IMG/VR virus record: IMGVR_UViG_3300009124_000032
Coordinates: 1-46,435 of that record
Reading direction: 5' to 3' (one strand)
Length of the DNA: 46,435 nucleotides
Source: a virus
The notes beneath the pieces were generated by a model. That model worked only from the letters and a program-made list of their open reading frames with translations, had not been told where the DNA came from and searched no databases. Positions 11,817-28,011 of the stretch are shown here, in pieces. Positions within the stretch are counted from its first letter, which is position 1; each line of letters opens with the position of its first letter. Both the position numbers and the translations under genes were made by a program.

Positions 11817-14411
11817 TTAGTTAAGCATGACGGGTAGACCATAAATTTGAGTGGGACCGAGGGCACACCCAAAGGCAGCAAGACCAGTACCACACCCATG
11901 AGAGAGTAGACCAGTTGTTACCTGATTAACAATAGCACCACTGCCGCCCGTTACAATCTCGCCTATGCCACCTGTTGGAGTGGACACTAGGGTCATATGA
12001 GCACCTGCACCAGAACCAGCAACAATGTCTGCCATTCCAGAGGCACCCTTAGTGCCTAGTGCCATACGAACATGCATCGAAGGTGAAACAGAACCGACAG
12101 GAGCATCCATCGTAATATCAACGATCGATCCATTGACCAAACTGTAAGAACCAGTGAATACTGGCATGGTCTGGAAGATCGCGATGACATCCATCCTACC
12201 ACATGCTAGGAACGAAGTGATCCATGATGCTTCGTTGACAATCTCACCCGTTGCCTTGTTAGTGATGGAGGTAGCACTTGTATGGACATCGGGGGCATCG
12301 AAAGTAATACCTGAGATACCTTTAACTTTAACTTGGTTACCCTGAATGGTAACATCACCTTGATATGAGATGGAATGGTCACCTGCTTTGGTTTGTGTAG
12401 ACTTTGCTTCTTTCTCACCTGCCTCAAAATCTAGATTCTTAGACGAAGCAACTTTTGAAAGACCTTCAATAGCATTTGATGCCTGCTTTGACCACTGGTT
12501 ATTATCTTTACCCAGAGGATTGCCAGCACTATTGATACCTTTTGCTCTACCACCAGCACCGTTTGATGTGTGCTCGTTAATTGATCCAGAAACTTCCAGA
12601 TGGAAGTCGCCCATAACTTTCAGATAGTAATCACCTTCCACTGTATGTACAAGGTTGTTCTTAACATTCTGAACCAAGTCGCGACCAATGATCTGTGTTT
12701 CATTACCAGGTACGTTAATATGTTCGTTACCAACTTTATCTTGGAAACTAGTAACACCACCAGGACCTGAGCGAATTCTCTTCTCTTTACCAGGTGTTGC
12801 ATCATCAATATCTCTCGAACCATTCAAGAACATCTTGGTTTCCATTACATATGGATTTAAGTTCTGGAAGAATTTATCAAAGAAATTTCCACCTGTACCC
12901 TCTTCACCAAAATCAGAACAATCATCACTAGTAGAACCACCAGGTCCATACAATGCACCACCAATATCAGAACATTCGGTGGTGCCAATTAATGGCATCC
13001 ACCCCTTCGCTCGTGGTTTTCGTGCTTTCCTTCCACAATCAATGAACGATGCAAGAATATCAACAATTAATGCAATAATATTGAGTACATTACCAAAATT
13101 AACTAATGCAGTAAAATCAATAGTGAAGAACTTACTGACGGATGTTACAATATCGCTAAGTTTTTTGATAGTATCGATTGCCTTGATAATCGTATTGAAG
13201 ATCTTAGACACCATCTTCAATACTTGACAGATCGCTTTCTGGATATTTTTAAGTGCCTTAGTTACATAGTCAGAAATTTGGTTAATAATTTTATTAACAG
13301 CATTCATTATATAATCAAAGATTGAGTCAGCAAAAGATCCAATGTTTCCTAATATATTACTGACTGCATCCAACCAACCAGGAACAGGCATACAGAAAAT
13401 ATTCTGAATGATATTCTTGATTAGTGAAATAATTGTAGTAACCACTGCCAAAGGAATAATCTTGGCAAATACAGATACAACCAAATCAATCTTATCTCTA
13501 ATTTCTCTTGCTAAAACCTCCTTGATAGGAGCAACCATACCTGTAACAGCATTCACAACATAATTTGATACGTTGTTAAGACTACTAAGAATGTTATTAC
13601 CAGATTGCACATGTCCTGAAATAACAGAGATAAGATCTCCTTCATTGTTAGCACCTAAGGAACCAATCTGAACACCAATATCATGTAGCATTCTACTTAG
13701 ATCTTTGGTAAATGAAGCGTTATCGCCACCACCAACAGGTCCATGAATACCATCAGCAATACCACCTTCCATTGATGGTGGACCTAATGGGTTTGTATAT
13801 ACATTAAACGGTGCTTCAACTTCTGCTCTATTAATAGCACCACGCGCCGATTCTTCACCACCATCAGGGCCACCAGGAGTAGCACCTTGACTCTTAGTAA
13901 AAGGATGACCCCCTTCTACATTCTCACCTGTAAATGATTTTCTTTGAGGTGATGTAGTTGCATACTCATCTTTATTTGCTTCGGTATCATCAGCAATAGT
14001 TGTTTTACTAACTTCGGTATCTAGACCATCATCTCCCGATTTACCACCACCTTGATTAGTCTTCTTCTTAAATCCACGGAATGCACCCATCACACATGGT
14101 AGTTGTGCTTCCTCACCATCCATAAAGAAACCCATCACAAATGCACCTACCTGCAATTCACAAGTAGATCCAGCGTTTTTGATCTGAGGTCTATCATTAG
14201 GCAGCAGAACTGTTGCCCATGGTAATGCTTCCGTTGGTAAATCTTCTAAGTATGACGATGATCCATCATCACTAGTCTTACCCTTTTGGTGCCAACCAAC
14301 GATACGAACTTTAACTCTACCAGTCTGAGCAGGATCTTCTACACTTTCGACTTCACCAATCCACCAAGAGAATCCATCTCTACCTGCAAAGTCAGTCTTA
14401 GTTCCAAGCAT
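11817..14411 (-). CDS. gp5: Baseplate central spike protein gp5-like, without lysozyme domain (864 aa)
   Basis: Residues 12-115 form the gp5/VgrG-type OB fold (WWIGEVESVEDPAQTGRVKVR, then ALPWATVLLPND and GAFVMGFFMDGEEAQLPCVMG). Residues 545-720 are short strands with HINVPGNETQIIG and GDYYLKVMGDFHLEVSG, the trimeric beta-prism spike. Residues 720-864 are Gly-rich with Cys/His (SHGCGTGLAAFGC), resembling a PAAR-type tip. T4 gp5 has a muramidase between the OB fold and the prism. Here residues 230-460 are instead a long, hydrophobic helical segment with no lysozyme motif. The protein would cap the tail hub together with gp27 and pierce the host envelope. The start overlaps the cpeT stop by one base. 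Confidence 0.88.
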   Translation of the reverse strand: MLGTKTDFAGRDGFSWWIGEVESVEDPAQTGRVKVRIVGWHQKGKTSDDGSSSYLEDLPTEALPWATVLLPNDRPQIKNAGSTCELQVGAFVMGFFMDGEEAQLPCVMGAFRGFKKKTNQGGGKSGDDGLDTEVSKTTIADDTEANKDEYATTSPQRKSFTGENVEGGHPFTKSQGATPGGPDGGEESARGAINRAEVEAPFNVYTNPLGPPSMEGGIADGIHGPVGGGDNASFTKDLSRMLHDIGVQIGSLGANNEGDLISVISGHVQSGNNILSSLNNVSNYVVNAVTGMVAPIKEVLAREIRDKIDLVVSVFAKIIPLAVVTTIISLIKNIIQNIFCMPVPGWLDAVSNILGNIGSFADSIFDYIMNAVNKIINQISDYVTKALKNIQKAICQVLKMVSKIFNTIIKAIDTIKKLSDIVTSVSKFFTIDFTALVNFGNVLNIIALIVDILASFIDCGRKARKPRAKGWMPLIGTTECSDIGGALYGPGGSTSDDCSDFGEEGTGGNFFDKFFQNLNPYVMETKMFLNGSRDIDDATPGKEKRIRSGPGGVTSFQDKVGNEHINVPGNETQIIGRDLVQNVKNNLVHTVEGDYYLKVMGDFHLEVSGSINEHTSNGAGGRAKGINSAGNPLGKDNNQWSKQASNAIEGLSKVASSKNLDFEAGEKEAKSTQTKAGDHSISYQGDVTIQGNQVKVKGISGITFDAPDVHTSATSITNKATGEIVNEASWITSFLACGRMDVIAIFQTMPVFTGSYSLVNGSIVDITMDAPVGSVSPSMHVRMALGTKGASGMADIVAGSGAGAHMTLVSTPTGGIGEIVTGGSGAIVNQVTTGLLSHGCGTGLAAFGCALGPTQIYGLPVMLN

Positions 14412-14899
14412 TATGTTAACGTGTGATTTAAGTTCCTGGCATTATTTAGACGATCAAACTGAAACATACCTTCATCTGGGGTTTTACCCCATGCAAATTT
14501 ACCAGTATCGACATAATATCCAGTATCCAATGAACGGTATACTTTACCATCAAATTCAATATTACTAATTACCTTGGTATTTCGTAATACACATTCATCT
14601 TGAACTTCACCAAACCACCACCCATTAAAGTATCCGAACTGTAAATTACATCCTGGTTTATCAGTCTGTAAATTATGAGAATGGGTGATCACAGTGTGTT
14701 CATCTAGATGTTCTAATGTTAAACGATAGTGTCGATATGGAGCATCTTCACCTTGATAGTTATACCATTGCTTCAATTCTAACACACTATCATCAATCTT
14801 AGTGTATAAGATATTAATCTGTGGCCATTTAGTAGGATTAGATTGCGCTTGTTTCTTATTCCTATAATGACCAACAATCATACTCTCAAATAAGGTCAT
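14411..14899 (-). CDS. cpeT: CpeT-like phycobiliprotein lyase (162 aa)
   Basis: Matches the CpeT/CpcT (T-type) bilin lyase family. An N-terminal GHYRNKKQAQSNPTKWPQI element is followed by a strand-rich body with YRHYRLTLEHLD, a Cys-Asn-Leu-Gln-Phe segment near residue 104, GWWFGEV, and late YYVDTGKFAWG. The family forms a calyx-like beta barrel that binds bilins; cellular members attach chromophores to phycobiliproteins. Cyanophage versions bind bilin but may not be active lyases, so a role in altering host light harvesting is likely but unproven. The start overlaps the end of the oxygenase gene by 14 nt, and both lie downstream of a strong sigma-70-type promoter. Confidence 0.85.
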   Translation of the reverse strand: MTLFESMIVGHYRNKKQAQSNPTKWPQINILYTKIDDSVLELKQWYNYQGEDAPYRHYRLTLEHLDEHTVITHSHNLQTDKPGCNLQFGYFNGWWFGEVQDECVLRNTKVISNIEFDGKVYRSLDTGYYVDTGKFAWGKTPDEGMFQFDRLNNARNLNHTLT

Positions 14900-15464
14900 A
14901 CCATCCAGTAATAATCATTTTCTCTTCGTTGGGTGCAGGTATACCCTGGTGCATATGTGTCCAATCAGCAGGCCATATAAGAGTCAATCCTTTGGCAGGT
15001 CTAACCTTTGCTTTCTGCTGAGAGAAATATGTTTCCCCACCTTCTTCAATATCATTTAGGTATGTCATCCATGCCATGATTCTACCATTGCATGATGCAT
15101 GATTCCTAGCACGTTCACAGTGTAGTTTCTTAAATCCTCCACCAGGTGGATACCATTGAATATTAAAGTCTTCAATAAGATCCCACTCAAAACTTTTAAG
15201 TTGTGGAAAAAAGTCACAATAATTTTTAGTGACTTGTGCTAACTGATCAATATAATTCGTTATTCGTTTATCTTTAATATATCTAGGAATCGTTAAGTCA
15301 ATTGAATCCTTGATATCTTTATCAACACCACCACCATGTTCACCCTGTTCTTTATCTAGATAGTCGCATGTATTGTAAAAGTCAACAACATCATCACAGA
15401 TATCTGGGTGGATCTTTCCTCCACCAATGAAACTATATGCAGCGTCAATGTCAATGTATTCCAT
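14886..15464 (-). CDS. 2-oxoglutarate/Fe(II)-dependent oxygenase, prolyl 4-hydroxylase-like (192 aa)
   Basis: The C-terminal 95 residues match the 2OG-Fe(II) oxygenase core. YPPGGGFKKLHCE supplies iron ligands H115 and E117, where most members have His-x-Asp. A strand with WMTYLNDIEEGGET precedes WTHMHQG (distal His, H172), and K182 probably holds 2-oxoglutarate, as Lys does in prolyl 4-hydroxylases. The family hydroxylates proline or other side chains using O2 and 2-oxoglutarate; cyanophages often encode such enzymes with unknown substrates. The ATG at 15464 is about 34 nt after the likely transcription start. It is coupled by overlap to cpeT and follows cp12. Confidence 0.82.
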   Translation of the reverse strand: MEYIDIDAAYSFIGGGKIHPDICDDVVDFYNTCDYLDKEQGEHGGGVDKDIKDSIDLTIPRYIKDKRITNYIDQLAQVTKNYCDFFPQLKSFEWDLIEDFNIQWYPPGGGFKKLHCERARNHASCNGRIMAWMTYLNDIEEGGETYFSQQKAKVRPAKGLTLIWPADWTHMHQGIPAPNEEKMIITGWYDLI

Positions 15465-15785: not shown

Positions 15786-17177
15786 TTATTTATTAGTAGC
15801 AGGTAAAGAGTCTCTGCACAAATACACTTCTGTGGTTATTCCTGTGTTGGTATACACATGTTTTAGACCTTTTACTAGGTATTTCCCTGAAAACATACGA
15901 TCTTTTGGTAGTGTATTCTTGTTCTTTTGCTGTGAAACAGGTATCTTTACCTTAATTACAGCACCTGCAAACAATCTAGTGTTTCCTGGTACTCGAATTG
16001 TTAATGTATGAGTATTCAGTAACATCCAACGCTGAGTTGCATATGATGCTGCATTCAGAATACTTTCACTTTCTTCTTCTGCACCACCATCCATATTGGC
16101 ATTGTCCTGTTGTACCATTTTTGGTAGAATTTTCAAGCGAGTTCTAGTTGGATGCATTTCTAAAAACTCTTCAATTGCATCTACATCATATGGAAATCCT
16201 TTCTCCAATGTAGATGCCTTATCGAATAACCCCATCAGTTGTGTTACGACAGGACCCATTACAGTCCCTTCGGGACCGCCATCACTAGTAGTTGCAGTTG
16301 ATTGTGGTAGCGTACTCATTGTTGGTGCTGCCATCACAATACCAAACGTTGATGTTTTGTATACACCGTTTCTAAGTTTCTCTAATTGGTTTGAACGATC
16401 AGGATACTTAACACTTTCAATCCTATACATGTCATCCACAGGACTATTATCATTTACATTCTTCTGCCCATAGACATACTCATGAATTGGTTGTTGCTCA
16501 CATAACATATCAATGGATACGAAGTTATATCCATTCTTATTATGAAAGAATAAAAACCCTGCTTGTCTTGCAGCAGTTCCATTCTTCTTAACGTTACCAC
16601 TCTTCTTAGAACCCTTAGGTTTACTCAGTCTTGATACTTTATCAGTTAGATAAGCAATACAATCCACAGGTCTCCAATTAGGAGAGATTACATTCATAAA
16701 GGTATGACCTTCAATGAAGATCTCTCTGTTGGGAATTTTTAGATATTTCCTCAACATCTTTTGCACAACATCTTGTTTGCCATTTTTCACACCAAACATA
16801 CCAAATGCTCGGTTTGCTTCGTTGTAATACATTGCTTCTGGTGCAAAGTGTAAGATATACATCTTTGCTCGTTCTTTCTTAATAACAGAACCAATCTTAT
16901 ACATCTTGAATGTTGCTTTACAGCGACCCTCTTTCTTTCCGTCTTCCTGACCAGCAAAGGTTGAGAACTCAATTTCTAGTTTCTCAGTCCCATATAGTCG
17001 AGTGTCTAAGTCAGTAGAATCTAGAATAGCAACATCCAATCTAATAAAGGGTGAATCAATAGATTCAAACCATTGAAACTCACTGATAACTGCTTTAATA
17101 TCTAGTTTTTCCTCTTTACCACCACTACGCAAAAATAGATCTGCTTTTGTAAGTTTAAAGGACTTAGTGTCTGCCAT
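15786..17177 (-). CDS. gp27: Baseplate hub protein gp27-like (463 aa)
   Basis: A gp27/VgrG-type hub protein. The N-terminal beta domain (FKLTKADLFLRSGG to WFESIDSPFIRLDVAILDS) is typical of the tail-hub barrel. It is followed by KERAKMYILHFAPEAMYYNEA and VVQKMLRKYLKI, as in phage late-control D/gp27 proteins. The middle has a Gly/Ser-rich linker around residue 300, and the C-terminus returns to beta structure (TLTIRVPGNTRLFAGAVIKV, then FSGKYLVKGLKHVY). In T4 the gp27 trimer holds the gp5 spike and adapts it to the six-fold tail tube. The gene follows the 1048-aa hub protein with a one-base overlap and precedes cp12. Confidence 0.87.
   Translation of the reverse strand: MADTKSFKLTKADLFLRSGGKEEKLDIKAVISEFQWFESIDSPFIRLDVAILDSTDLDTRLYGTEKLEIEFSTFAGQEDGKKEGRCKATFKMYKIGSVIKKERAKMYILHFAPEAMYYNEANRAFGMFGVKNGKQDVVQKMLRKYLKIPNREIFIEGHTFMNVISPNWRPVDCIAYLTDKVSRLSKPKGSKKSGNVKKNGTAARQAGFLFFHNKNGYNFVSIDMLCEQQPIHEYVYGQKNVNDNSPVDDMYRIESVKYPDRSNQLEKLRNGVYKTSTFGIVMAAPTMSTLPQSTATTSDGGPEGTVMGPVVTQLMGLFDKASTLEKGFPYDVDAIEEFLEMHPTRTRLKILPKMVQQDNANMDGGAEEESESILNAASYATQRWMLLNTHTLTIRVPGNTRLFAGAVIKVKIPVSQQKNKNTLPKDRMFSGKYLVKGLKHVYTNTGITTEVYLCRDSLPATNK
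15787..15794 (-). promoter_or_regulatory. Possible late promoter variant AATAAATA before cp12
   Basis: AATAAATA on the minus strand, 27 nt upstream of the cp12 start, the same spacing as the exact late boxes elsewhere here. It coincides with the last codons of gp27, so it may be chance. Confidence 0.35.
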
Positions 17178-20100
17178 TACGCTATGCTAACAGGTTCGTT
17201 AAAAATTTCTGATGTAAGACCAAACCTGGGTCTGGCGTAATCATTCGCTGGTATTATATATGGAGCACCACTACCACCTGATGATCTAGGAGCAGCAGAG
17301 GCAACAGTATCATTCCCTGGACCACCTTGTGGGGGTAATGTTGCTGCTGTAACTCCACCACCTTGTTTTGCTTCGGCAGTGGCAGCATCTTCCTTCTTCT
17401 GCATAGAAGTAAGTAGATCACTCGTTGATGCTTTACCACCATCCATTATTTTTGCATCCTTAGCATATTGCCCTAAGAGACTCATCTTGCTACCGATGTT
17501 CTCCATGACACTTTCAAAGGTGACAGGTTTCTTTTGTTCTGCATCACTACCTGTTGATGATGTAGTTGCACCCAAAGTATCTGCTGATGTGCCCTGTGAA
17601 GTAGCACTCACACCGTCATGAGCGCCCCAACCCATACCATCAAAGATCTTTTGTTTGCCATCCTTCATGACGATATCACCAGTCTGATATTTCTTATTAG
17701 CATCAAACTTAGGAATACCACCTTTCTTCACTTGCTTCAATGCTGCCATGATCTTGTCAGGAGTCATTGCACTGCTTTGACCTGAATAATGGAACTTACC
17801 ATCCATATTAGGTAGTGACGCAAACTCCTGAGATAATCCTTGCATGAATTCTCTATCAGTCATCTTACCCGCTAACCAGGATTCTGCTCCACGCGCTTTT
17901 AAGTTTGCCTCAATAATAATTTTATCTTGATTAGCAGCATTGTATAGATCTTTATCTGGATCTAAACCTGCCTTTCTTGCTCGTTGAGCAAGGAAACGTG
18001 GAAGTTGTTGATACTTACCTACTGCACCTGATGCCTGACCAATAACCTGAGAAATGGTCATCTTAGTAGCACCTGGAAGAGTGGTACTAGGATACATCGC
18101 TTCATAATTACCACCAGATTCTTTACCAGCAACCAGATTCAACAACGGTGCCCATTTACCACCCGAAGAGAATCCATCCATGGCACTAGCATCTGATGCA
18201 TAGTCTGTCAACATCCCAGTGGATTTACCAAAGAAATCCATAATTGCACCAGTGGACTTATATTGTGCCTCTTCCTGTGTTGCACCCGCCCCAGGGGACG
18301 CGCTAGACACCCCTGAGGGGGATGTAGAGGTGGATCCACTAGGACTGGATACAGTTGTCTTTGCTCCCTTGACTGGTGCTACTGATCCTGATGATTCTGC
18401 TACGGTCGAATCACCACCCATAAATCCTCTCGCCTTAGCGCGAATGATATTACCACCAGATCCTTTCTCTCCGTTCTTAGTGAGGTGCCAGAGATCCCAA
18501 CGTGATCCATCACCACCCCATGCCGTAGGACCATAGTTATCATTCTTAGGAAGTAAACCATCTTTGCCAGATGCTGCCTCAGCATGAGTCATCACATTCT
18601 TAACATTAATATCATTAGGAGACCACCCTCTGTTCTTTGCAATATTAGCAATCTCTTTGGACATTGAAGTGACTTGATCATCACTAGGCCAACGATAATT
18701 ACCTGCCCCGCCTGACATCGCAGCGAGAGACAATCCAATACCTGTACTATTTCTCAAATATGTGTGAGAAACACCACCTCTTTGATCATAAGGGTGTGCT
18801 CGATATACACTACCATCACCTTGAATGATACCGTGATACTTTCCTTTCTGCTTAAAGTTACCACCACCAGCGGTCCAGTGCAAGAACATCTTGCCACCTT
18901 TCGCCATCCTATCCATTCCAGAAAGACGATTCTCTTCCTGTGAACCATCACGACGGTGATTCTTTGTGCCAGATAACTTACCACCCTTAGCAAATGCAGG
19001 CAGACCATAACCGCCTGCTTTCGCCTGCTGCATTCTCATGCCAGTCAGACCATTACCACCCCTGGTTGCAGGAGTGTCAAATGGTACAACGAATGCATCA
19101 CCACCACCAGCACGTTTACCTACCCATTCAGTACCGTGACCGATGAATGATGTAGATCTACCACCATCAAGTGATACAGGATACCCAGATTGTGGACCAT
19201 TGATCCATCCACCACCTGATGCTTTACCAACTTGACCACCTATTGCTTTGCCTTCTAACTTCTCAATTTGTTGTTTGATGGGTTTATCTTTACCCAACAT
19301 CTTTTGAATAAAGTTGAGACTATCAAGTTGCTGCTGTAACTGTTTTGCTGTCTCTTCTTCACCTTTCTCTTTTACTAATTCTGCTACACTTTCGTCGGTA
19401 GGATCTTCATTAAATGCACCAGCAGCGGCAGCAATTGCGCCACCTGCTAAGAATGCTCCTGCTACCCAAAGACCTCTACCTTTAACAAAGGCAAACATTC
19501 CTTTGAATACACCAGTGACAGACTTGAATAGTGTACTAACAAATCCTGAAACACCTTTAACTAATCCACCACCTTTCGCTAGTTTAAAGAATAAACCAAG
19601 ACCTAATTTCGCTACGGCAGCAGGAGCAAATATGAGTCCTAATGCTGTAACAAATTTGATAATACCGAATACACCCTCAAAACTTAATGGGTTATCTAAG
19701 AACTCAATGAGACCGTTAAGTCCCATCTTAACTAATGCACCATAAGTATCAATAAAGAACTTACCAATAGATTTTATTGTTTCTAGTAGTTTCTTTACTT
19801 TCTTGATATTTTGTGGATTACCTAACCATTCCATCAATCCATAAAGGAGTAGTGATTTGAAGATACCACTAAACAACTGAGCAATACCTTCAAAGAAACC
19901 TAATGCCCTTGCAGCAATCTTCTTACTCTTCTCACCAACAGAACTTTTTTCTTTTAATCCCTCTTGCTTACTTTCTGCTTTCTTATCTTGTTCTAGTCCT
20001 GCTGCTCTCTTATCTGCCTTTTCACTCTTCTTTAATAATTTCTTCTCTTCTTTAAGAGCATCTTCACGACTATCGAGCAACCCTTGCTGCAATCCAAGAC

Positions 20101-20323
20101 TTTTCACATAAAAACCCTTGAAGGACTGGTTCATGTCCTCAATTAAGACAGCAATACTGTTGGTAGTCGCACCAAGACTATTGATTGCTTTGATATTTTT
20201 AACATAACCCACTTGGGGTTGAGTGATAGTCTTACCACCAACCTTTACAGTAATACCACCCCCCTTACCTGAAAATGTAGGAGGAGTTACATACTTATAT
20301 AATCTTGCTTTGGTTTCTGCCAT
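17177..20323 (-). CDS. Tail hub/tape-measure-like protein with amidase and muramidase-like domains (1048 aa)
   Basis: Residues 80-135 are a Lys/Glu-rich coiled coil. Residues 138-300 hold several hydrophobic helices, with YGLMEWLGNPQN shared with the adjacent paralogue. Residues 478-613 are an N-acetylmuramoyl-L-alanine amidase (Amidase_2): MFLHWTAGG with ligand H482, MTHAEA with H580 and RWDLWHL with D610. Residues 722-850 look like a lysozyme/transglycosylase domain (LLNLVAGKESGGNY, probable catalytic E735; then ASGAVGKYQQLPRF). A repeated motif (STGAIMDFFGKSTGMLTDYA) lies near 690 and a relative near 935. The enzymes would cut the peptidoglycan glycan-peptide bond and the glycan during DNA entry. 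The gene overlaps gp27 by one base and lies directly after its paralogue. Confidence 0.85.
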   Translation of the reverse strand: MAETKARLYKYVTPPTFSGKGGGITVKVGGKTITQPQVGYVKNIKAINSLGATTNSIAVLIEDMNQSFKGFYVKSLGLQQGLLDSREDALKEEKKLLKKSEKADKRAAGLEQDKKAESKQEGLKEKSSVGEKSKKIAARALGFFEGIAQLFSGIFKSLLLYGLMEWLGNPQNIKKVKKLLETIKSIGKFFIDTYGALVKMGLNGLIEFLDNPLSFEGVFGIIKFVTALGLIFAPAAVAKLGLGLFFKLAKGGGLVKGVSGFVSTLFKSVTGVFKGMFAFVKGRGLWVAGAFLAGGAIAAAAGAFNEDPTDESVAELVKEKGEEETAKQLQQQLDSLNFIQKMLGKDKPIKQQIEKLEGKAIGGQVGKASGGGWINGPQSGYPVSLDGGRSTSFIGHGTEWVGKRAGGGDAFVVPFDTPATRGGNGLTGMRMQQAKAGGYGLPAFAKGGKLSGTKNHRRDGSQEENRLSGMDRMAKGGKMFLHWTAGGGNFKQKGKYHGIIQGDGSVYRAHPYDQRGGVSHTYLRNSTGIGLSLAAMSGGAGNYRWPSDDQVTSMSKEIANIAKNRGWSPNDINVKNVMTHAEAASGKDGLLPKNDNYGPTAWGGDGSRWDLWHLTKNGEKGSGGNIIRAKARGFMGGDSTVAESSGSVAPVKGAKTTVSSPSGSTSTSPSGVSSASPGAGATQEEAQYKSTGAIMDFFGKSTGMLTDYASDASAMDGFSSGGKWAPLLNLVAGKESGGNYEAMYPSTTLPGATKMTISQVIGQASGAVGKYQQLPRFLAQRARKAGLDPDKDLYNAANQDKIIIEANLKARGAESWLAGKMTDREFMQGLSQEFASLPNMDGKFHYSGQSSAMTPDKIMAALKQVKKGGIPKFDANKKYQTGDIVMKDGKQKIFDGMGWGAHDGVSATSQGTSADTLGATTSSTGSDAEQKKPVTFESVMENIGSKMSLLGQYAKDAKIMDGGKASTSDLLTSMQKKEDAATAEAKQGGGVTAATLPPQGGPGNDTVASAAPRSSGGSGAPYIIPANDYARPRFGLTSEIFNEPVSIA

Positions 20324-23300
20324 TTATTTCGTAAGAAGTGGTGATGCGGATGGACTACTAGATCCTCCTCCGCCGCCGCCTGTATTAACTGTATTAGTTT
20401 TCACAACAGGTTGCACAGCAATCATCATATTTGGTTTGCTTGGTTCTTTATCCCGACGAACTTTACTAGTAGACAGAGATTTCAATTTATCTGCTGTTGT
20501 ATTTATCTTACTAGGGGGAGCACTTACCGTAGCAGCAGGTTTTAATGATTCTGCATAAGATGCACCATCAGCAAGAGGTCCAATACCACTCACCTGTGCA
20601 TTTGGCATACTTGTGGTTGTTGGCATAGATGAACCACCCATGACAGAAGTATCCTTAGCATACTGCCCCAATATACCAGCAGACTTCTTGAAGAAATCTA
20701 CAATACTACCAGTTGATCGATATTCTTCTGCTGCTGATGGTTGACCACCACCTGCACCACCACTTTCGGCATTGGTACCACTTTTACCAGAACTAGATCC
20801 ATCGTCAGTAGCAGAAACATCATCTTTACCCGTATCTGTACTAACAGCACCAATGTTTGCTCTCATCCAAGCATTATGAATGGCAGGTGTTCTGCCTTCA
20901 ATATGAGCATGAACATATCCATTACCCATACCAACGGAGTCTTGGATACCGATGATAGTATTAGGTGTAACTTGGTCTCCTACCTTCACTTTAATCCCAG
21001 TCATATGACCAGAACGGAACATAGGACCAGACCCATCTTTAACCCTTACTGCACCCCATCCTTCACCAACAGAATCAACAGTACCAGTAACACCCGCACG
21101 GATAGGATGTCTATCACCCTTAGAGTCAGGTGATGCTGGATTACTCTTCTCAGAGATTAGATAGTCCCTAGGAATACCACCAGAACGAGGTACATTACCA
21201 CCAGGTTTAGGATGATGATGTGGATATGTATCAGCATATCCTTTACCATCACCCATCATTTTGGGAGCGCCAGAAGGTGCTGTGGAGAACACATAGAGAC
21301 CACCACTAGCAAATCTCTTGAATTGTCCCTCACCCTGTGTAGGAATATCAAACTTAGTGACAAGTTTCTTGGAGGTTGTATATCTAGGTTTAGGTAGATC
21401 TTTTTTCTTCTGCGATCCATCTTTCACTATACCACCCACTGCCATCTCAGGGAGATCAGGTGGTTTGATCTCTGCCGTACCATCACCATCATTCTCAGCG
21501 GCACCCATCAATGCCTCCATACCAGGCATTTCGCTCTTAGGATCACGTACAAGTTTCCTTTGTGGGAAATCACCACCAAGTTGCTTAGCAATTGGATCAT
21601 CTATATCTTTTAGACCAGTCTTAGCAAGCAAACCAAGTAGTTGCTCTGCTGCCCACTCACCAGCGAATCCACCAGCAGCACCAGTAATGAAACCAGGAAC
21701 ACCACCAAATGGAGCACCAATAGCAAAACCAGCACTATATCCTAATAAACCACCTAATGCTTTCAGTATAGCGTTGATAGGTGACTCACCAAATACACCA
21801 TAATCTAACAATGCCATGATAGAGGCAATCAGTGTATCAATACCACCAATCTTCATGCTGGATTTCGCAGCACCAAGAAACTCTCGCATGGTCTTGAACC
21901 CAGGATTCTTAAATCCTGATGCCAAGAAACTAACAACAGATTTTCCTGCCGTCTTTACCTGTTGTCCTCTTGGTAACTCAGCAAACTCGGCAATCTTCTT
22001 TGCCTGAGGATTCTTTTCTAATATAGGTTTGATGAAGTCTTTGACTTTTGTAGTTACCTTTGCAGCAAGTGCCTTAGGATTCTTTGCCATTTCGACAACA
22101 TCACCAAGACTTTTCCCTGCTTTCTTACCAAAGTCCCAGATGCCTTGACCCATACCCTTGACACCATCAATCATGGCACCCGCACGAGCACCAAACCAAT
22201 TATTAAGTCTGCCTACCTGCTTTAATGCAAAACTACCACCCTTTTTGAGTTTTGTCTTGGCAACAGCACCCGCATCGACAGCACCACTCCAAAGGTTTCT
22301 GAGAGTGCCTACGACACCCTTGTTCTTTGCTGCTGCTTTTGCAAGTTTCTCACCACCCTCCTCAATGACAACATCAGTAGCAACACCAGTTGTAAGGCGT
22401 TGGGTTGCCTTTTTTTGTGCCTGTTCAAGTTGAAAGGGTGATAAATTTGCTGTTGGTTTTACAGCAGGTGTTGGTGGTTTCTTGAATAGATCATTGATAC
22501 CAGTCGCTGCTGCCCCAAACTTTTTGGTAATCTGACCACGAAGAGCCTTGATTCTCCTAAGTCTCTTCGCTTTCTTTATATCTTTGAGACGTTGCTTTGA
22601 TGTTCTGCCATCTTTACCAATTCTCTTACCTTTCGGTTTTTTTACCTTAGGTCCACACCCCATGGAATCGGCAGCGTCTACCGCCTTGCCGAGACCAAAC
22701 ATAAATTTAGCATCACTTAGCAACTTCCATGGCATTAAGATGCGTGATCCAATGTGGATCGCAGCAAATCCTGCTAAGATTTTGAGAACACCAAACATTT
22801 TGTCGAGACCATTCTCGACCATACTCTTGTCGGGGTCATAACCAAATACATCAGTTATACCGTCCAGAACTGAACCAACACCCCAACGGGTGAACATACT
22901 GGCAAGATTCCAGATACCTTTAAAGAAATTAAATACCTTTGTTATCTTCTCTTTGTTTTTCGGATCGCCTAACCAATCCATCAAACCCATTAAGGCAGGT
23001 ATAGCGACTAACTTAACTAGACCACCAATGAGTAGTGTCATTGGTTTTAGTAGTCCCTTCAACCACCCAAACCTAGACTTCTTTTCCTTCTTTCCTTCTT
23101 CTTTTCCTAATTCGTGTTCACCCTTCTCGTTTAGTGATTCTTGCTTTTTCTCTGCTAATTTATCTTGTTGTAACCCCTTCTGTTTATTCAGTAAATCTGA
23201 CTTTTTTTCAATTATATCTTTTCTATGCTCAGATTCTTTTTCCGATATATCTTTCTCTTGCTCTAAGAATCCAATTGTGGATTCTTGATACATACTAATT

Positions 23301-23458
23301 AATTCTTTGAATTCAGTTAACTGAACTCCAATATTTGTTACAGCACCACCCATACGATTATGGGCAATGGTCATTTTCTTGAATGCCTTGCCCAAATCGT
23401 CAGAACTAACATCAGACGAAGGACTGATGTTAATATATTTTCTAAGAGTTGCTGCCAT
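20324..23458 (-). CDS. Tape-measure-like tail protein with M23-like domain (1044 aa)
   Basis: Residues 55-130 are a long charged coiled coil, followed by hydrophobic helices (LLIGGLVKLVAIPALMG, then LMDWLGDPKN shared with the next gene). A basic stretch lies at 270-312 and a Gly/Ala-rich hydrophobic region at 540-600. Residues 745-860 resemble a LytM/M23 peptidase: HPIRAGVTGTVDSVG, FRSGHMTGIKVKVGDQV and YVHAHIEG (H850, H852). The first zinc-ligand motif is unclear. C-terminal repeats (STGSIVDFFKKSAGILGQYA) match those of the paralogue. Position right after the gp26 chaperone-like genes suggests the tape measure; length 1044 aa would suit a tail longer than 100 nm. It ends one base before the paralogue starts. 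Confidence 0.82.
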   Translation of the reverse strand: MAATLRKYINISPSSDVSSDDLGKAFKKMTIAHNRMGGAVTNIGVQLTEFKELISMYQESTIGFLEQEKDISEKESEHRKDIIEKKSDLLNKQKGLQQDKLAEKKQESLNEKGEHELGKEEGKKEKKSRFGWLKGLLKPMTLLIGGLVKLVAIPALMGLMDWLGDPKNKEKITKVFNFFKGIWNLASMFTRWGVGSVLDGITDVFGYDPDKSMVENGLDKMFGVLKILAGFAAIHIGSRILMPWKLLSDAKFMFGLGKAVDAADSMGCGPKVKKPKGKRIGKDGRTSKQRLKDIKKAKRLRRIKALRGQITKKFGAAATGINDLFKKPPTPAVKPTANLSPFQLEQAQKKATQRLTTGVATDVVIEEGGEKLAKAAAKNKGVVGTLRNLWSGAVDAGAVAKTKLKKGGSFALKQVGRLNNWFGARAGAMIDGVKGMGQGIWDFGKKAGKSLGDVVEMAKNPKALAAKVTTKVKDFIKPILEKNPQAKKIAEFAELPRGQQVKTAGKSVVSFLASGFKNPGFKTMREFLGAAKSSMKIGGIDTLIASIMALLDYGVFGESPINAILKALGGLLGYSAGFAIGAPFGGVPGFITGAAGGFAGEWAAEQLLGLLAKTGLKDIDDPIAKQLGGDFPQRKLVRDPKSEMPGMEALMGAAENDGDGTAEIKPPDLPEMAVGGIVKDGSQKKKDLPKPRYTTSKKLVTKFDIPTQGEGQFKRFASGGLYVFSTAPSGAPKMMGDGKGYADTYPHHHPKPGGNVPRSGGIPRDYLISEKSNPASPDSKGDRHPIRAGVTGTVDSVGEGWGAVRVKDGSGPMFRSGHMTGIKVKVGDQVTPNTIIGIQDSVGMGNGYVHAHIEGRTPAIHNAWMRANIGAVSTDTGKDDVSATDDGSSSGKSGTNAESGGAGGGQPSAAEEYRSTGSIVDFFKKSAGILGQYAKDTSVMGGSSMPTTTSMPNAQVSGIGPLADGASYAESLKPAATVSAPPSKINTTADKLKSLSTSKVRRDKEPSKPNMMIAVQPVVKTNTVNTGGGGGGSSSPSASPLLTK

Positions 23459-23646
23459 TAGAGATAACTTTTACCAGACTGTTGTTTAGACCGTTCTCGT
23501 TCTTCTTCTTGTAAATATGCCAGAAGAAGATTAGTATAAACTTCTCGTTCCCAAGGTATCATGTTTTCCAACTCGGAGAGGGAATACTTATGATGATGCA
23601 TTAAGGCGAAATTAGTCTTGTAGTAATTTTCAAGACTATTATGCAT
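23458..23646 (-). CDS. Small tail-assembly protein at the gp51 position, probable frameshift partner of gp26 (62 aa)
   Basis: A 62-residue charged helical protein with MHHHKYSLSELENMIPWERE followed by VYTNLLLAYLQEEERERS. It sits between gp26 and the tape-measure-like gene, where lambda-like phages place the T part of the G/GT tail-assembly chaperone. Its ATG is 5 nt after the gp26 stop, has no recognisable ribosome-binding site, and its frame is open upstream through the gp26 stop. It lies in the -1 frame from gp26, where a T_TTT_TTC heptamer would allow fusion. T4 gp51 occupies a similar role (hub assembly) but is much longer, so gp51 homology is uncertain. Confidence 0.75.
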   Translation of the reverse strand: MHNSLENYYKTNFALMHHHKYSLSELENMIPWEREVYTNLLLAYLQEEERERSKQQSGKSYL

Positions 23647-23651
23647 CAGGG

Positions 23652-24353
23652 CTATGCGAAAAAAGATGCTAATCCTTCAAGCGTAACTGTATTCATCACC
23701 TTAGTCTTTGGATTCTCAACATCAAACTCATATACGAGTTTAGGCATGGTATCAAAGAATTGTTGAATCAATCCGAACTGTTCATTGTTCATCTGACCAA
23801 GGAAATCCTTTGCTTCCTGTTTAGTAAATGAATCGTAGGTTTCTTCACCTTCATATACTTTCTTGATGCAATTTGCAGCAAGATCAAACACATCATCAAT
23901 ATCAGGTTCGTCTTTCATGTTACGATCAACGAATGATTCCAAAGCGGGATATTTCATTTCCACTTTGACAGTTTCATTAAGTTTAATAATCTTTTTATGT
24001 TCCTTAGGAACAACTACTTCAACTTCTTCCAAGTCAATAGAGACATCAACCTGGGTTTCACCATCATCTTGACAGGTAACCTTAAACTCACTAATTTCAC
24101 CAACTGCCTTGGATCTAATCTTCAAGAATAGATACTCAATTTCAAATGTGGCAAGGTTATCAACTGTTTTAAGGTTAGTACAATCCTTCAAGATAGTCTT
24201 GACTGCTTTAAACATCTCCTTCTCGTTCTGGGTTTCCATAGCAAGATAGAGCAGTTTTTCCTCTTTTACAAGGAAAGGTCTATATATGACCTTTTGACCA
24301 CTGATTGGCATTTTGCACTCATAATCAGGGATAACAAGAGTAGGAAGTGGCAT
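23652..24353 (-). CDS. gp26: Baseplate hub assembly protein gp26-like (233 aa)
   Basis: Matches the T4 gp26/baseplate-protein family: PLPTLVIPDYECKMPISGQ, then YRPFLVKEEKLLYLAMETQ, a hydrophobic FEIEYLFLKIRSKAVGE, and an acidic strand pair (VDVSIDLEEVEVVVPKEHKK). In T4 gp26 acts in assembly of the central hub; by position it equals the G chaperone of lambda-type phages. The last codons TCT TTT TTC GCA TAG contain a T_TTT_TTC slippery heptamer, and a -1 slip there reads RIAL and then the 62-aa ORF. A TATAAATA box lies 22 nt upstream of the ATG, so this begins the late hub operon. Confidence 0.85.
   Translation of the reverse strand: MPLPTLVIPDYECKMPISGQKVIYRPFLVKEEKLLYLAMETQNEKEMFKAVKTILKDCTNLKTVDNLATFEIEYLFLKIRSKAVGEISEFKVTCQDDGETQVDVSIDLEEVEVVVPKEHKKIIKLNETVKVEMKYPALESFVDRNMKDEPDIDDVFDLAANCIKKVYEGEETYDSFTKQEAKDFLGQMNNEQFGLIQQFFDTMPKLVYEFDVENPKTKVMNTVTLEGLASFFA
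23658..23664 (-). promoter_or_regulatory. Candidate -1 ribosomal frameshift site (T_TTT_TTC)
   Basis: The minus-strand heptamer T TTT TTC is in the gp26 frame (Phe231-Phe232), 2 codons before the stop. It has the X_XXY_YYZ form of programmed -1 sites. After slippage translation continues CGC ATA GCC CTG ATG into the 62-aa ORF with no stop, giving a 298-aa fusion. Confidence 0.65.
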
Positions 24354-26040: not shown

Positions 26041-27079
26041 GCCAACAAAATCAAAGACAAAAAAGAATAAACCTTCGACCGCCCAGAAGAAAAAAGGTTC
26101 TGATAAGATTGGTACTGATGGTGCTAGACTTATTTATCCACTGGAATTACCTCGTGGTCCCAAAAGAAGTGGCGATGGTGCTATATCACGTAAAAGTGTA
26201 GCACCTACTCGAAGTATAGATTATTTAAAATTCATGATCTATGATTCTGAAAAGAATAATCAATACACTTATTCTGGAAAAAATAAGGGTAAAGGTGCTG
26301 CTGATCAGATCATGAAATCTGTGTACATGTATCTACCTCATGATCTCACTGAAACATTTAGTACCACATACGATAAAGCAACCCTAGGACCATTTGGTGA
26401 TGCTATTGTCCAAGCGATGGCAACGAATGGGCAGGATATGGACGCAGTGACTGCTGCTATCCAGAGCGGAGCAAATGCAGCAAAACCAGAGATTGCATTT
26501 AGTGCAGTGTCTAATATTTTTAATGGTTTGAATTCTTTTGCTGGTACTGATGGCACTCTAAACAAAAATCAGTTAGCAGCGATTGCAAAAGGTAAAGTAT
26601 TTAACCCATATCAAGAAACTGTATTCCAAGGTGTGAATTATCGTTCGCACAACTTTACTTTTGATATGGCACCACGTAATGCCAAAGAAGCAGAGAACAT
26701 TCAGAAAATTATTCATGTTCTCAGAGATGCTATGCTCCCTGGTACTAGTGGAGATAATTCTCGATGGTTGACTATACCTCGTTTCTTCAAAATTCAATTG
26801 ATTAGATACAACCCTCAGGGAAGAAGTACAACTGCACGAGGAGCGGGGACTATTAGTAAACCAGAAATGATGTCAACACTACTCACTTTTCCTGTGAATC
26901 TTGTATTGACTAATATGCAAATCAATATGACTCCATCGGGTCAACATAGTTCTATTAGAGGACTTGCTGATGATAATACAGACTTTGGACCTGCTTCTTA
27001 TAAAATGACTCTTACATTTGATGAGACTGCATTCATTACTCGTGAAATGTACAAAGACGCCAAAGGAAAAGGAAAGTAA
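26039..27079 (+). CDS. gp48: Baseplate tail-tube cap protein gp48 (346 aa)
   Basis: A Lys/Ser-rich N-terminus (to about residue 50) is followed by YLPHDLTETFSTTYDKATLG, a flexible Ala/Gly region, then the conserved core NYRSHNFTFDMAPRNAKEAE, IPRFFKIQLIRYNPQG and MQINMTPSGQHS, ending TLTFDETAFITREMY. This follows T4 gp48, which caps the baseplate and, with gp54, starts the tail tube. The ATG overlaps the gp4 start on the other strand (CATG). It is followed by gp53 with a one-base overlap (TAATG). The gene is on the opposite strand from its functional partner gp54. Confidence 0.85.
   Translation: MPTKSKTKKNKPSTAQKKKGSDKIGTDGARLIYPLELPRGPKRSGDGAISRKSVAPTRSIDYLKFMIYDSEKNNQYTYSGKNKGKGAADQIMKSVYMYLPHDLTETFSTTYDKATLGPFGDAIVQAMATNGQDMDAVTAAIQSGANAAKPEIAFSAVSNIFNGLNSFAGTDGTLNKNQLAAIAKGKVFNPYQETVFQGVNYRSHNFTFDMAPRNAKEAENIQKIIHVLRDAMLPGTSGDNSRWLTIPRFFKIQLIRYNPQGRSTTARGAGTISKPEMMSTLLTFPVNLVLTNMQINMTPSGQHSSIRGLADDNTDFGPASYKMTLTFDETAFITREMYKDAKGKGK
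26131..26138 (-). promoter_or_regulatory. Possible late promoter variant GATAAATA for gp4
   Basis: GATAAATA on the minus strand, 91 nt upstream of gp4, inside the gp48 coding region. It differs from the exact box by one base. If real it mirrors the plus-strand box on the other side of the shared start. Confidence 0.35.
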
Positions 27080-28011
27080 TGCCACACTATTTTGAATTAA
27101 TTCCAAACGTAAAAGTACGTGTATCGCCGTTTAGGCGTAATAACGTTGAACCTTATGTTGTTGCTAAGAATATCTTCCGAAGAATCAAACTTCGTGAGAT
27201 AATTCAAGACGATATTTTGGGGTTTGACCAATATTCTGTTAGCAACAATCAAAGACCTGATCAAGTTGCTAATGATCTCTATGGAGATCCAGAATTGGAC
27301 TGGGTAGTGTTGCTATGTAATAATATTATCAATGTGTATAATGAATGGCCCATGGATGAGCAGGAGTTATACAAATACGTTGAATCTAGATATAAAGGTG
27401 TTAATAGTCATGATCAAATTCATCACCATGAGACATTTGAAGTAAGATCTGATGATGGTACTATTCTTCTAAGTGAAGGCACTATTGTTAATAGCACTTT
27501 TAGATATACAAGATCAGATGGATCATTAGTAAACCCCATCGTATATCCAGTATCTAACTGGGAACACGAAAGGGCGTTAAATGAAGAGAAAAGTAATATT
27601 TGGACTTTACGGTCTTCGTATATAGAACAATTTGTTGATGAATTTGAAAGTCTTCTTGAATATGCACCCAATGAGGAAGTTGGTGATGGTGATAATGTTA
27701 AGATGACAGCAAATGCTGTTGAAGAGATATTCATTACCAGAAAAGCAACTTATTCGACAGAATATGGTATTACACCATCTGTTACTTTTGCTGGTCAACA
27801 AGAACTTGGTTTGAGAGAAATTACTACAACTATTAATGCATCTGGTGCCTCAGTTTCGTCTTCTGTATCTGGTTCGGGAACATCATCGACAGTAGTTAAC
27901 TCTTCTGGTGTTATTGCTGGAACCACAGATGCTAGCAGTACAACTAACACTAATAGTAGTAGTAGCAGTTCCTCTTCTAGTTCCTCTTCTGGATCTAGTG
28001 GTGGGTACTAA
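27079..28011 (+). CDS. gp53: Baseplate wedge protein gp53 with serine-rich tail (310 aa)
   Basis: Residues 1-110 match T4 gp53: YFELIPNVKVRVSPFRRNN, NIFRRIKLREIIQDD, and the LysM-like GDPELDWVVLLCNNIINVYNEWP. In T4 gp53 joins neighbouring wedges and locks them to the hub. T4 gp53 is about 196 aa; here residues 240-310 are an extra low-complexity tail of Ser, Thr, Gly and Asn, ending in a run of 12 Ser and GSSGGY. The 3' end overlaps the opposite-strand glutaredoxin-like gene by 17 nt. It is the last plus-strand gene. Confidence 0.87.
   Translation: MPHYFELIPNVKVRVSPFRRNNVEPYVVAKNIFRRIKLREIIQDDILGFDQYSVSNNQRPDQVANDLYGDPELDWVVLLCNNIINVYNEWPMDEQELYKYVESRYKGVNSHDQIHHHETFEVRSDDGTILLSEGTIVNSTFRYTRSDGSLVNPIVYPVSNWEHERALNEEKSNIWTLRSSYIEQFVDEFESLLEYAPNEEVGDGDNVKMTANAVEEIFITRKATYSTEYGITPSVTFAGQQELGLREITTTINASGASVSSSVSGSGTSSTVVNSSGVIAGTTDASSTTNTNSSSSSSSSSSSSGSSGGY
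27954..27998 (+). repeat. Serine-codon microsatellite in the gp53 tail
   Basis: Consecutive AGT, AGC, TCC and TCT codons encode the poly-serine run near the gp53 C-terminus. The mix of AGY and TCN serine codons suggests selection for serine as well as slippage. Confidence 0.7.

Follow-up and report, generated by a model that had tools for sequence, protein, structure and literature searches.

A -1 slip site conserved at the 3' end of gp26 points to a tail assembly chaperone probably made in two forms in T4-like phages

Genes and slip site at the gp26 junction

Here we describe the junction between gp26 and the open reading frame (ORF) that follows it in DNA of 46,435 nucleotides from a T4-like ocean virus of cyanobacteria (IMG/VR record IMGVR_UViG_3300009124_000032; hereafter the window). 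The gp26 ORF (233 amino acids; 24353..23652, minus strand) was assigned as the short form of a tail assembly chaperone (TAC-N) from the ORF list, its matches to PF12322 (T4_baseplate, E=3.8e-64) and phrog_150 ('baseplate hub', E=5e-69), and its fold. Its final codons on the minus strand are TCT TTT TTC GCA TAG. They contain the slippery heptamer T_TTT_TTC (23664..23658, minus strand; identified from sequence and conservation), which lies in the gp26 frame in the X_XXY_YYZ form, one codon ahead of the zero-frame TAG stop (23652..23654, minus strand; from sequence). Read in the -1 frame from the heptamer, the DNA continues as CGC ATA GCC CTG ATG... (R-I-A-L-M-H-N-S-L-E-N-Y-Y-K) and is free of stops to 23458. 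This extension of 66 codons after the slip (RIALMHNSLENYYK...; 23458..23658, minus strand) was assigned as the C-terminal part of TAC-NC on the basis of its open frame, its alignment and a match to phrog_634 (E=7.8e-30), and the predicted gp26-gp51 fusion is 298 amino acids long. The ORF of 62 amino acids that is annotated as gp51, 'baseplate hub assembly catalyst' (23458..23646, minus strand; phrog_634, E=1.5e-27), has an ATG that is probably internal to the extension. A sequence-only reading of this DNA had proposed an in-frame heptamer at the end of gp26 and a stop-free -1 passage through RIAL into the 62-residue ORF, giving a fusion of 298 residues; direct reading of the heptamer and of the frame as far as 23458 agrees with both proposals. 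As a word, TTTTTTC is not rare in the window (11 occurrences against 12.3 expected; no excess), so the case must rest on relatives.

Directly past the -1 extension, an ORF of 1044 amino acids starts at 23458 (20324..23458, minus strand), for which position and length suggest a tape measure protein. Its family matches are to phrog_12696 (unknown function; E=7e-124) and to 'endolysin' families, with no named tape-measure family among them, and a weak match to Peptidase_M23 falls below the Pfam cut-off. The earlier description of a tape-measure-like gene at this place thus agrees with position and length but finds no backing in the family matches. In Caulobacter phage Cr30, a gene annotated as tape measure comes one small ORF later. 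The 1044-residue ORF and the adjoining ORF of 1048 amino acids (17177-20323, minus strand) share 29% identity over 157 residues (E=2e-11), and their lytic-type domains differ (the weak M23 peptidase match in the former, Amidase_2 in the latter); the two may represent a duplicated tape-measure or tail-lysin gene. Elsewhere in the window, genes for a CpeT-like antenna protein and a 2OG-Fe(II) oxygenase (14411-14899 and 14886-15464, minus strand) adjoin a baseplate hub/tail lysozyme (gp5-like) gene, and an ORF of 310 amino acids (27079-28011, plus strand) has a long serine-rich, low-complexity C-terminal stretch.

Conservation of the slip site and the -1 frame

Homologues of gp26 were gathered from viral contigs and reference phages, yielding 157 readable junctions (the window included), 71 of them distinct, from 17 lineages at <50% gp26 identity. 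When a Vibrio gp26 was used to scan viral contigs, no match was obtained. An in-frame T_TTT_TTN lies 0 to 3 codons ahead of the gp26 stop in 157 of the 157 junctions, mostly as T_TTT_TTC and in a few cases as TTTTTTT or TTTTTTA, and the -1 frame is open into gp51-type sequence at every one of them. The gap between heptamer and stop is 0 or 1 codon in 51 of 53 representatives (90% identity). Where the extension is complete (152 junctions), it is always 55-68 codons long; the other two frames past the stop are open for at most 29 codons. Within the rest of gp26, T_TTT_TTN occurs in frame at 10 of 12,438 codon positions. As these junction sequences are related rather than independent, we claim no formal probability; position and conservation are what set the heptamer beyond chance. 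The sequence-only reading had suggested aligning this junction across relatives, and both the heptamer and a constant -1 relation of the frames are found to be kept throughout.

Heptamer and -1 extension are present in Kyanoviridae, in straboviruses of Vibrio, Aeromonas and Cronobacter, and in phages of Stenotrophomonas, Acidovorax, Rhizobium, Pseudoalteromonas, Caulobacter and Sinorhizobium; in three phages that were added (Caulobacter Cr30, Sinorhizobium phiN3 and S-PM2) the heptamer agrees. The closest named relative of the window among the matches listed is Synechococcus phage S-WAM1 (72.5% gp26 identity), in which the extension carries no annotated gene and the annotated gp26 begins at an internal start.

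At its C terminus gp26 almost invariably has Phe-Phe, and the heptamer might be no more than a by-product of these two residues. However, the codons used are fixed: the first is TTT, preceded by T, in every representative of all lineages, and the second is TTC or TTT, whereas use elsewhere is mixed (TTT accounts for 53-64% of Phe codons in gp26 bodies). Moreover, two lineages have TTT TTA, which makes the second residue Leu and leaves the slip site intact, and T4 and two other phages with separate long and short genes (see below) write Phe-Phe in another way. We give this reading next to no probability. The long form could instead come from RNA polymerase slippage on the T6 run. Transcriptional slippage usually requires longer runs, about 8 or more, and although 6 or 7 T are found at every junction, in 69 of the 71 distinct junctions it consists of exactly six T with C or A after them. 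The run always stands in the X_XXY_YYZ register, which is set in part by the Phe-Phe codons, and is then followed by local structure. Polymerase slippage is, in our view, exceedingly unlikely.

The annotation of gp51 as its own gene in public records implies a third possibility, in which a separate protein of 62 amino acids is made from its own ATG by re-initiation past the gp26 stop. In the clade of the window this ATG (at 23646 in the window) lies 5 nt past the TAG, which makes re-initiation possible there. No Shine-Dalgarno site is present before the 62-residue ORF. The sequence-only reading had been correct in this, but the absence carries no weight as evidence because gp26 itself has none in this clade. 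The relatives are more informative. The first 8 codons of the extension contain no ATG, GTG or TTG in 11 of 17 lineages at 50% identity (16 of 25 at 70% identity and 18 of 50 at 90%), and in some the first start codon comes as late as codon 14 to 31. In the alignment, the extension peptide is conserved from Phe-Phe on, before any start codon; among 559 phage records with a match to the extension, most of the tblastn matches listed begin at the Phe-Phe of the slip site. A separate gp51 would also leave the conserved heptamer and the continuous chain of T4 gp51 (described below) unexplained. From these sequences, the downstream ORF usually cannot stand alone, and we regard a separate gp51 as very improbable. 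The records examined either give gp51 as an independent 'assembly catalyst' or miss it.

We then consider the RNA downstream of the heptamer as a possible stimulator of slippage (z scores computed against dinucleotide shuffles). In the window, a two-stem structure is predicted at 23594..23648 (minus strand; minimum free energy -15.1 kcal/mol, z -2.90), with an outer stem pairing 23641-23648 with 23594-23601 and an inner stem pairing 23631-23638 with 23613-23620. Across 25 lineages, the 50 nt past the heptamer are more stable than the shuffles (mean z -1.57, s.e. 0.35), and this is the strongest signal in a scan from -250 to +150; the next windows of the scan reach -0.8 to -1.2 and most others are near 0. 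In the group of P-SSM2, a phage with the same heptamer as the window, a hairpin lies 5 nt past the heptamer. Several of the 25 lineages show no structure signal in the fold scan, the predicted structures show weak covariation (two clades, each with one compensatory pair), and the outer stem of the window is not kept in register by its relatives. Given the weak covariation and the lineages that lack the signal, we grade a downstream RNA stimulator at the slip site as likely only. An upstream Shine-Dalgarno-like stimulator was not found in the window (p 0.945).

Taken with the heptamer, the constant frame and the missing start codons, the RNA structure supports the earlier proposal that -1 frameshifting operates in this T4-like lineage. 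We conclude with high confidence that the end of gp26 carries what is, judged by its sequence, a conserved programmed -1 frameshift site.

The predicted long form, T4 gp51 and phages with two genes

Compared with phrog_150, the fusion of 298 residues matches in one stretch (residues 1-277) with 271.2 bits, against 233.8 bits for gp26 alone; its match to phrog_634 covers residues 208-294. T4 gp51 (249 amino acids) has the same composition, matching phrog_150 over residues 3-248, PF12322 over 1-201 and phrog_634 at its end, and T4 gp26 also matches PF12322. Since T4 gp51 holds PF12322 and the same tail in one ORF, it is the counterpart of the whole fusion, and T4 gp26 that of the short form. The profile comparisons thus make T4 gp51 homologous to the entire fusion and not to the 62-residue ORF alone. 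The earlier reading had noted that T4 gp26 and gp51 are usually described as separate proteins; they are indeed encoded by separate genes, and its account is corrected here by matching T4 gp51 as a whole to the fusion.

In T4, the long and short chaperone genes are separate and divergent. A long gp51 together with a separate short gene is also found in Muldoon, Acinetobacter Tonic, Aeromonas 50AhydR13PP, Yersinia fHe-Yen9-01, Klebsiella 146055 and 146002, KFS-EC and fDHCT2. T_TTT_TTN was not found at the end of the short gene in nine of these nine two-gene phages (T4 and the eight others), and three of them (T4, Klebsiella 146055 and fDHCT2) keep the Phe-Phe pair but write it TTC TTT, which is not slippery. 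From this contrast, the slip site is present where the extension lies in the -1 frame and absent where there is a separate long gene. In Klebsiella phage phi1_146002 (2501-3794), the long and short chaperone genes run in the same direction and overlap, with the long gene first, unlike in T4.

A model of the gp26 structure obtained with AlphaFold2 (mean pLDDT 85.4) was compared with known structures by VIA-align. The top match is the HK97 tail assembly chaperone (2ob9; Z 7.4, r.m.s.d. 4.0 over 83 residues), followed by Bacillus YqbN (3klu; Z 6.9, r.m.s.d. about 4 over 83-84 residues), and the next match has a Z of 4.7. The HK97 match lies below the caution level of the program (Z 8) and is confined to residues 1-84, and gp26 is about twice as long as these two proteins. 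Foldseek alone gave no significant match for the model, and the gp26 and extension sequences had no meaningful match among solved structures. The modelled fold is therefore suggestive of a tail-chaperone-like N-terminal domain, over about residues 1-85 only.

A probable chaperone in two forms and its relation to known systems

Together, the one-stretch phrog_150 match, the loss of the heptamer in two-gene phages and the tail-chaperone-like fold favour the G/GT-like chaperone that the sequence-only reading had proposed: from its sequence, the short chaperone is probably gp26, with gp26-51 as a minor long form made by -1 frameshifting. A tail assembly chaperone would thus be produced in two forms from one locus. 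Most ribosomes would stop at the TAG and release gp26. A minority would slip by -1 on U_UUU_UUC, with tRNA-Phe re-pairing with UUU in both sites, possibly with help from an RNA structure downstream and from the stop codon close by, and would read on to produce the 298-residue fusion. If the locus works as lambda G/GT does, the domain common to both forms may coat the tape measure protein, and tube or hub subunits may be recruited by the rare C-terminal extension. We infer the occurrence of slippage, its efficiency, its stimulator and its role in assembly.

The lambda heptamer is G_GGA_AAG, and family searches revealed no similarity in sequence to lambda gpG. In lambda G/GT (Levin 1993; Xu 2004; PMC5009743), a -1 slip at the 3' end of the chaperone gene likewise gives a short and a long form. 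It lies just upstream of the tape-measure gene, as that of the window lies upstream of the candidate tape-measure gene; the ratio of the forms and their role in assembly were measured in lambda only. A second parallel is found in Vandenendeviridae / Andersonviridae (phage Adele, PMC12846349), where a myovirus chaperone also has a conserved -1 frame and a poly-T slip site; in phage Adele, too, the downstream part was misannotated as a gene, but the slip motif (GTTTTT) and the phage families differ. A further comparison is with gp26 (TAC-N) and gp51 (TAC-NC) of T4-like phages, which belong to the same family as the genes of the window (PF12322, phrog_150 and phrog_634). T4 has two separate, divergent genes and no slip site, whereas the long form of the window requires a -1 slip.

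Chaperone genes of T4-like phages were identified by Vladimirov, Gautam and Davidson (2022, Virology 566:9-15; cited in PMC10885494 and PMC12846349). In the citing papers, that study is given as a source both for T4-like phages with one short and one long gene and no frameshifting (PMC10885494) and for TAC-N genes of T4-like phages that carry poly-T -1 signals (PMC12846349). As cited there, it makes both the mechanism and its presence among T4-like phages prior knowledge, and part of the T4-like frameshift finding appears to have been reported by 2022. As far as the literature found shows, what is added here is the present instance, the count of start codons, the contrast with two-gene phages and the scan for RNA structure.

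According to a 2016 review, long-tailed phages widely share the G-T tail frameshift, 'except T4' (PMC5009743). The present junctions place a conserved -1 slip site in many lineages of T4-like phages beyond the T-even branch, and the exception is therefore a narrow one. We lean slightly towards a history in which frameshifting, with clade-specific downstream hairpins, was ancestral in T4-like phages and the T-even branch switched to separate short and long genes and then let the slip site decay (Phe-Phe becoming TTC TTT). Such a replacement, if true, would offer a natural experiment on what makes phages retain frameshifting.
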